Below are positions 22,889 to 24,695 of a stretch of DNA of 64,000 nucleotides, piece after piece (the stretch's first letter is position 1; the number at the start of each line of letters is the position of its first letter). This stretch comes from an uncultured Gammaproteobacteria bacterium. GTDB lineage: Bacteria; Pseudomonadota; Gammaproteobacteria; UBA4575. A program made the position numbers and the translations under genes. Location of the stretch: assembly GCA_951812785.1 (NCBI GenBank), contig OX638335.1, positions 895,501 through 959,500 of the forward strand, in the 5' to 3' direction. The notes under the pieces were generated by a model, which was given only the letters and a program-made list of their open reading frames with translations, was not told the DNA's origin and did no database searches.

Positions 22889-22923
22889 AATAATCAGGTC
22901 AGATTGATATGGAGGAGATGTTA

Positions 22924-23670
22924 GTGTCGAAAAAGTGGGAGTCCAAGTTATTCGTAGTTCTATTCGCTTGTATAACTATGATGGTCGGCGGATGTGCCAG
23001 TACGCAGTATGTTGCTAATGAGCGCGATCCATGGCAAGGCTTTAATCGAACTATGTATGGGTTTAATGATGGTTTGGATCGAGCATTATTAAAACCAGCA
23101 GCTAAGGGATATAAAGCGATTGCTCCTGATTTCGTCGAAACTGGCGTGTGTAACTTTTTTGATAATTTAGACGACGTCAGTGTTGCCGTCAATAACCTGC
23201 TCCAAGGTAAAGTATCTAATTCTTTTTCAGATATAGGTCGTTTAGTTGTTAATAGTACGATCGGTATATTGGGATTGTTTGATGTTGCTAGCCCCATGGG
23301 GCTGACTAAGCACGACGAAGATTTTGGTCAAACCTTAGGGGTATGGGGAATGGATTCTGGCCCTTATATTATGTGGCCAATCTTTGGCCCATCTACCTTG
23401 CGAGATTCACCATCCTTAGTGGTTGATAAGGTGCTGTTGAATCCTCTCACCTATGTTGAAATTAAAACAGGTGAGCGCATCGCGGTTGTTGCATTAGATG
23501 TCGTGAGTGTGAGAGCCGAATTATTATCCTTGGAAGAAACAGTTGATGAAATTTCAACGGATAGATACACGTTTATTCGCGAAGCTTATTTAGATCGTAG
23601 GGAATTCTTAGTCAGTGATGGGTCGCCATTGGAAGATACTGATCTTTATGATGAGCTTGATGACGAGTAA
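22924..23670 (+). CDS. mlaA: Outer-membrane lipid asymmetry lipoprotein MlaA (VacJ)
   Basis: Outer-membrane component of the Mla system, which removes mislocalised phospholipids. The signal peptide ends in the lipobox VGGC (CASTQYV). Family blocks: DPWQGFNRTMYGFNDGLDRA, FVETGVCNFFDNLDDVSVAV, NNLLQGK and the late hallmark DFGQTLGVWGMDSGPYIMWP. I take the GTG at 22924 as start because GGAGGAG lies six bases before it; the ATG at 22909 overlaps that ribosome site and would add five residues. About 248 residues. Confidence 0.93.
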   Translation: MSKKWESKLFVVLFACITMMVGGCASTQYVANERDPWQGFNRTMYGFNDGLDRALLKPAAKGYKAIAPDFVETGVCNFFDNLDDVSVAVNNLLQGKVSNSFSDIGRLVVNSTIGILGLFDVASPMGLTKHDEDFGQTLGVWGMDSGPYIMWPIFGPSTLRDSPSLVVDKVLLNPLTYVEIKTGERIAVVALDVVSVRAELLSLEETVDEISTDRYTFIREAYLDRREFLVSDGSPLEDTDLYDELDDE

Positions 23671-23708
23671 GTAAAAAGTCTTCTCCACACAACGTTTTTA
23701 GAATATTT

Positions 23709-24506
23709 ATGGGAGCCTGCATACTTTGTGGAAAGTATGCAGGCCTTTTTTATTCCCTGCATAAAAACTGTTTCGAGAAATATAATGCTTCTGATCAACT
23801 CATAGCGGGTCATTTGATTGATGGGTTAGCCAATACTGAGTCCGCCCTCCTTGCAAAGACAATTACAGCAGAGATAGAAAAATATGAGTTTTCTGCTGAA
23901 GCTCAACAGCGAACCTTAAATCGGTCTCTGGAATATTTTGCTAAAAATAATATTAATCTAGCTAACGCACCTGATATTCATTCTTGGATTGAAGTGCTAA
24001 ATGAGCTTGCACCGAATGAGTCGCTATTTGTAAATAAGCATTTCATTTCCCAGCAACTGAATTTGCCTGCTATGCAAGCACTGCAACGACAGCAACTACC
24101 TGAAAGTAACTGTAACCCATCAAGCTTCTCAATTAATTTGAGAGAAAATGAGCAATTATGGTGGTGCTTCAATAAGAGTTCTACGGAGCAGTTAAAGCCA
24201 AGGCAAAACAAACGTCAATGGTCAGTAGTGATGCAACTGGTAGAAAGCCTATTGCCAAAAAAGAATAAGCAGTCTCTTGAGCGAGAAAGTGTTGGTGAAG
24301 GAAAGTTGTTAGTGACTAATCAGAGAATATGCTTTGAGAAAGATGAGCAATCTGTCTTCACTGAGTATCAAAACATTTATTCATGCACGCCGGTGAGTGA
24401 CGGTATTCGTTTACAGTCAAAAGAACTATCGGCTATCCCTTGCACTTATTATTGTGAAGATGGTCGTTTGTTATATGCTTTTATAAAGCATATGCAAATA
24501 ACCTAA
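23709..24506 (+). CDS. Zinc-finger plus PH/GRAM-like domain protein, unknown function
   Basis: 265 residues. The N terminus (MGACILCGKYAG, then LHKNCFEKY) has a CxxC and an H-x3-C pair and could bind zinc. The middle is helical and polar. The C-terminal third, GEGKLLVTNQRICFEKD followed by beta-rich sequence, looks like a GRAM/PH-like domain of the kind found in bacterial proteins with GxLxxTNxRIxF motifs. No Shine-Dalgarno sequence precedes the ATG at 23709, yet the cysteine motif begins three codons later, so this start is needed. The first codons form a terminator hairpin. I do not know a function. Confidence 0.7.
   Translation: MGACILCGKYAGLFYSLHKNCFEKYNASDQLIAGHLIDGLANTESALLAKTITAEIEKYEFSAEAQQRTLNRSLEYFAKNNINLANAPDIHSWIEVLNELAPNESLFVNKHFISQQLNLPAMQALQRQQLPESNCNPSSFSINLRENEQLWWCFNKSSTEQLKPRQNKRQWSVVMQLVESLLPKKNKQSLERESVGEGKLLVTNQRICFEKDEQSVFTEYQNIYSCTPVSDGIRLQSKELSAIPCTYYCEDGRLLYAFIKHMQIT
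23715..23751 (+). terminator. Perfect intrinsic terminator inside the start of the next gene
   Basis: Thirteen-base perfect stem (GCCTGCATACTTT against its complement), four-base loop GTGG, then C and six T. It sits 45 bases after the mlaA stop, where a terminator is expected, but also within codons 3-14 of the ORF starting at 23709. Confidence 0.8.
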
Positions 24507-24542
24507 GTACAGAAGACACATCCTTGTGTGTCTCTGTATTGA

Positions 24543-24695
24543 TTAGCTAAATAGAGATTTTAGCCAAGAAAAAAAGCCACCAGATGAGGCGGTATTGTTA
24601 GTGCTAGATTGACTAGAATGTGCTTGAATCTCTCTCGATGCTTGCCAATGTCTGCGTAGTACAGAGTCTTGTGGTGCTTCTGCTGTATTGCTCAT
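24543..24695 (-). CDS. 50-residue protein with amphipathic C-terminal end (hypothetical)
   Basis: Starts MSNTAEAPQDSVLRRHWQAS, has a Ser/Thr/Asn-rich linker and ends GGFFSWLKSLFS, an aromatic amphipathic helix suited to lying on a membrane. GAGGAG stands eight bases before the ATG, a strong Shine-Dalgarno sequence for this genome. It faces the orphan at 23709-24506 tail to tail and precedes ppiC by 120 bases on the other side. I do not recognise the family. Confidence 0.55.
   Translation of the reverse strand: MSNTAEAPQDSVLRRHWQASREIQAHSSQSSTNNTASSGGFFSWLKSLFS

Follow-up and report, generated by a model that had tools for sequence, protein, structure and literature searches.

One usually looks for terminators outside coding sequence, and the choice of codons at the start of a gene is usually explained by translation. 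What, then, is a hairpin with the anatomy of an intrinsic terminator doing within the first codons of a gene? The question arises from a stretch of 64,000 nucleotides (the window) from an uncultured gammaproteobacterium. There, on the plus strand, mlaA (22909-23670; PF04333, E = 2.8e-75) is followed by an ORF encoding a protein of 265 amino acids (23709-24506), with a CxxC...HxxC-like N-terminus, a helical middle, and a PH-like C-terminal domain. The stop codon of mlaA lies 38 nt ahead of the ATG of the downstream gene, which can be read directly from the sequence at 23709.

The 5' arm of the hairpin occupies 23715-23727 (codons 3 to 7, nt +7 to +19) and the 3' arm 23732-23744 (codons 8 to 12), both on the plus strand. 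Between them is a GTGG loop (23728-23731), evident from sequence and fold, and behind them a U tract (23745-23751, codons 13 to 15), consisting of C at 23745 and six T's at 23746-23751. Direct reading and folding both confirm the original prediction of a perfect 13-bp stem, a GTGG loop, and six T's at the start of the gene. The stem-loop runs from nt +7 to +36 of the ORF, to +43 with the T run. Its extent, first given as codons 3-14, is better divided: codons 3-12 belong to the stem-loop and 13-15 to the T run. The CxxC motif had been placed within the stem, and this is true of the first Cys codon, which lies wholly inside, but the second (TGT, codon 7) straddles the arm and the loop. The rest of the putative zinc site (H18 and C21) is encoded downstream of the hairpin.

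The folding energy of the hairpin, -20.8 kcal/mol (z -8.0), was equaled by none of 200 shuffled sequences. Its stem is by far the longest among the 7 terminator-like sites found by a scan of 20-28 kb, a region where the number of such sites is overall not above that in shuffles, and it is the most stable of the sense hairpins with a T-rich tail in a mechanically chosen set of 382 ORFs, which amount to 355 kb of coding sequence. The genome, a single contig of 2,158,385 bases, contains the 30-mer of the hairpin only once, even when up to 3 mismatches are allowed, which rules out an origin as a repeat or uptake sequence. A terminator on the minus strand is ruled out as well: the reverse complement folds, but no T run stands behind the stem. 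As a separate matter, CCTGCATA of the 5' arm (23716-23723) recurs at 23757-23764, just past the T run. The 3' arm could thus pair downstream too, with the second CCTGCATA, and the repeat is, by eye, partly kept in relatives.

Is the hairpin truly within the gene? Relatives of the 265-aa protein were found in 13 of the 19 genomes of the GTDB family, representing 5 of its 6 genera, and in none of 75 genomes from other families of the class. Among the genomes searched, therefore, the protein family appears by sequence similarity to be confined to this GTDB family. The four proteins from the same genus (73, 64, 57, and 38% identical) all align from Met1, and in other genera the alignment starts at residue 2 or 3, with GTG at the matching place. 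The case raised at the outset, that orthologues begin downstream of the hairpin, does not hold, and a start of the gene itself at such a place is ruled out in the same way. Since relatives align from residue 1, the start of the ORF is right and the hairpin lies inside real coding sequence. A leaderless start served by the -10-like TAGAAT at 23698-23703 was considered and set aside, as by eye the motif is not kept in the other four species. The gene had been said to have no Shine-Dalgarno sequence. This is true but ordinary here: with starts assigned mechanically, a strong one precedes only 55 of 252 ATG ORFs of the sample, as against 9 of 252 in a control interval. Strong Shine-Dalgarno sequences being uncommon in the genome sample, the lack of one is not special to this gene.

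The protein itself has no match at E 1 or better in either Pfam or NCBIfam. Four residues (C4, C7, H18, and C21) do not vary among 11 sequences, and this C/C/H/C pattern suggests that the N-terminus may bind zinc. An AlphaFold model (mean pLDDT 85.4) consists of helices and a C-terminal PH-like domain. Foldseek gave no match to the model in the PDB at E <= 0.001, and a second structure comparison found PH-like folds for residues about 135-265, among them Dcp1 (4b6h_A; Z 11.8, rmsd 2.2, 106 aligned), which bears out the earlier PH-like label.

All five species of the genus considered, that of the window and four others, have the hairpin and its T run, at a fixed position relative to the ATG, and in the relatives five to seven T's stand directly behind the stem. 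Over a 45-nt alignment of the five, 93.3% of cells pair. Ten of the 15 pairs never vary, and three vary on one side while remaining paired. At pair 6-37, two species have A-U and two have G-C, and in the species of the window the pair is broken. The four relatives keep the stem with one internal mismatch: pair 14-29 is formed only in the window species, which has Tyr10 (TAT), and not in the others, which have Ser10 (TCT). The protein, in other words, decides which pairs are possible, Ser10 leaving one mismatch and Tyr10 closing it. For these five sequences, covariation scores no higher than a column-shuffle control (150 of 500 shuffles matched the score), so the case for function rests on constraint of codons.

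That constraint is considerable. The first 25 codons were recoded 1000 times according to genome codon frequencies (117,617 codons from 382 ORFs), for 11 of the 13 loci; L013, which is without the N-terminus, and L014, a gapped gene whose start is a near-copy of that of L007, were excluded. The terminator-like energy was matched by none of the 1000 recodings for the window species, G003, G002, and G004 and by 2 for G001. In the six sequences from other genera, the observed energy is ordinary, reached by 107 to 1000 of 1000 recodings; these relatives have the same zinc-finger-like start and lack the hairpin. When 20,000 usage-weighted recodings were applied to codons 2-13, the folding energy was reached by 3, 4, 8, 3, and 24 of them in the five species.

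The codons tell a similar story when compared directly. Where a residue is invariant across the five species, a single codon is used in 8 of 11 cases within codons 2-14, as opposed to 3 of 46 beyond codon 21 (Fisher p 1.4e-5). The background level, over 16 ORFs of the syntenic locus, is 350 of 2288; these ORFs were chosen mechanically and all were retained, including at least one likely antisense frame (ORF 5). Of 1739 13-codon intervals with at least nine invariant residues, 8 reach the level of 8 in 11, every one of them in this gene, and the 5' ends of the other 15 ORFs exhibit no comparable constancy. Codon 13 encodes L, L, F, P, and F in the five species, yet it is always CTT, TTT, or CCT, which indicates that a pyrimidine tract is kept (or that the stem is extended) despite the change in residue. 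Codons 15-21 (23751-23771), past the hairpin, are also unusually constant, a single codon serving at 4 of 5 invariant residues, few as these residues are.

Selection acts, then, on the nucleotides of the gene's start in five species of the genus, beyond what the protein needs. A comparison of the first 15 codons in orthologues, proposed with the original prediction, gives just this result, and the dual use of the bases proposed there is supported by the codon constraint, the lack of downstream starts, and a T run that immediately follows the stem in each of the five species. Taken together, a hairpin beyond the reach of recoding, the constancy of codons, and the want of a hairpin in other genera argue that nucleotide selection added an RNA element to a coding sequence.

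Is the element a terminator? It has the expected features: a stable GC-containing stem, a short loop, and a T run directly behind. In placing a terminator-like element at the start of a gene (nt +7 to +43), it also has a feature of attenuators. A survey of 464 kb of the genome for hairpins of energy -12 or below, with at least 5 T's within 1 nt of the stem, yielded 46: 21 intergenic, 15 antisense, and 10 sense within ORFs. In stability, the hairpin considered here exceeds 20 of the 21 intergenic hairpins. By a terminator score in the register of the survey, it gets 2.5, below 16 of the 21 intergenic hairpins and above the other nine sense hairpins (best -3.1), the low value arising because a C precedes the T run. 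Optimizing the register raises the scores of the five species to 22.5, 28.2, 33.9, 31.0, and 20.3, values not directly comparable to those of the survey, which was not so optimized. In the five species, the stretch from where mlaA ends to 200 nt beyond the gene contains no other comparable T-tailed hairpin, nor does the 5' end of the gene carry one in the other genera. A 90-nt fold brought out no alternative structure. No Rfam family was matched above its gathering score: cmscan gave three matches, each far short of that score and each to a eukaryotic family, which were rejected as evidence of a known RNA family. The best inference, drawn from anatomy, is that mlaA transcripts terminate at the hairpin.

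Some features downstream of the gene deserve mention. A stable hairpin at 24509-24540, just past the stop codon, has no T run (the 80-nt 3' fold has an energy of -22.6 kcal/mol); in other species of the genus, too, the gene is followed by hairpins resembling this one in sequence. A conserved small ORF, its 50 aa falling short of the usual cut for ORFs, lies at 24543-24695 on the minus strand, convergent with the gene (MSNTAEAPQDSVLRRHWQASREIQ...SGGFFSWLKSLFS); a relative of it with the motif S[VT]LRRH is readable at 10 of the 13 loci. Within its last codons is a short T-tailed hairpin on the minus strand (24577-24592), 5 pairs followed by CTTTTTTT, perhaps there by chance.

The observations at the start of the gene are probably best explained by a conserved intrinsic terminator within codons 3-15, acting as an attenuator at the border between mlaA and the next gene and keeping the downstream protein scarce. 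A polymerase that has transcribed mlaA, or that started at any promoter ahead of the ATG, would complete hairpin and U tract no more than 45 nt past the start codon, and the hairpin would form too early for much interference by ribosomes. Part of the transcripts would stop there, giving mlaA mRNA with a protected 3' end, and the fraction that reads through would supply a low level of the downstream protein. On those RNAs that stop, the stem, which starts 6 nt after the ATG triplet begins, would also impede the start of translation on a message that lacks a stop codon. That termination occurs, how much read-through there is, and what purpose it serves are the parts of this account that we infer. 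Published experiments lend it plausibility: according to PMC4824070, terminators placed within 100 bp of the start of a coding region are efficient in E. coli, and translation cut the efficiency of a tR2 terminator 30 bp past the AUG by only about 10%, which the authors explain by the inability of the ribosome to catch the polymerase within the first 100 bp. Against the attenuator stand the covariation result, the pairs that are broken or unformed, and the low score in the register of the survey; in addition, a bare terminator does not explain the constancy of codons 15-21, and the genome sample has rather few strong terminators.

Other readings of the same hairpin must be weighed. Perhaps it is a switch coupled to translation, in which a 30S subunit or ribosome at the ATG covers the 5' arm and blocks the hairpin, which otherwise terminates transcription and hides the start. 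Ribosomes finishing mlaA 38 nt upstream would assist, and the terminator would in effect read translation initiation. A bound 30S subunit, with a downstream reach to about +15 to +19, would take in the 5' arm (+7 to +19), and the fixed distance of the hairpin from the ATG in all five species is as the switch would have it. But the polymerase, having released the ATG, needs no more than about 25 nt further to make the hairpin, there is no strong Shine-Dalgarno sequence, and the 38-nt spacer is not conserved between species. On these grounds we regard the switch as unlikely. Translation-coupled read-through, suggested in the original prediction, finds nothing here beyond the geometry to recommend it, and the small effect of translation on the tR2 construct (PMC4824070) favors a plain attenuator. 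It is similarly doubtful that the 15 codons serve at once as coding sequence, as intrinsic terminator, and as a lid on their own ATG, so that the presence of the 30S subunit decides both transcription and translation.

Alternatively, the element might not terminate at all and be instead a regulatory site in RNA or DNA, for example an autoregulatory site for the zinc-finger-like protein encoded there or a brake on translation initiation. Such an inverted repeat can bind protein, and the constraint is on the arms and extends past the T run, into codons 15-21. A binding site, however, would not need the T run that stays behind the stem in all five species, even where residue 13 changes, and no nucleic-acid-binding fold was identified in the protein, the C-terminal domain being PH-like. 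We give this possibility little weight. Finally, the protein motif CILCGKSAGLFY, conserved in all genera, does permit pairing, and GGC-CTT-TTT-TAT is partly dictated by G-L-F-Y, so one might suppose that the hairpin arose by chance, the codons being alike because the species are close or because of a general constraint at 5' ends. This is most improbable: at most 2 of 1000 recodings reach the observed energy, six sequences of other genera have the same motif and no hairpin, the window species and G001 use the same codon elsewhere in only 22 of 74 cases, and the 5' ends of the other 15 ORFs are without such constancy.

The genus keeps an apparent transcription signal within the codons of a conserved protein motif. 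If termination is true, then the locus offers a clear instance from nature in which to ask whether terminators close to a start codon escape the ribosome or sense it, and terminator finders that discard hits in coding sequence can miss the borders of operons.

How does the arrangement compare with known systems? In ribosome-mediated attenuation of the pyrBI type, the terminator overlaps a short leader-peptide frame with a pause site. Here too, a terminator overlaps translated sequence and a ribosome could suppress it, but the overlap is with the start of the structural gene itself rather than with a leader peptide. A dual transcription-translation attenuator has reportedly been engineered. The tR2 construct W48 in E. 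coli (PMC4824070) has an intrinsic terminator about 30 bp past a start codon, in the coding region, between cistrons; it is an engineered plasmid, whereas the present case occurs in nature, within a gene of full length, and five species maintain it through their choice of codons. The premature-terminator attenuators treated in PMC2965389 likewise put a terminator at the 5' end of a gene, but they lie in leaders before the start codon, not after it in codons 3-15, and nothing like their sensing leader or antiterminator was seen here. The authors of that article count 18 candidates in E. coli that lie 15 nt or less from a start codon, and they consider the possibility of a terminator hairpin that sequesters the ribosome binding site as well, for which, they say, there had been no experimental demonstration. 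RNA 3' ends have also been mapped inside or just within ORFs of E. coli, that of mdtJ six nt into the ORF; those discussed in PMC7815308 are largely Rho-dependent or products of RNA processing, unlike a codon-embedded intrinsic hairpin conserved in a genus. A search of a partial library, which is weak evidence, found no paper on a natural, conserved, codon-embedded terminator close to a start. Thus, a start-proximal intrinsic terminator or attenuator is a known device, and the present variant differs in where it sits, inside codons 3-15 of a structural gene, and in being conserved there.
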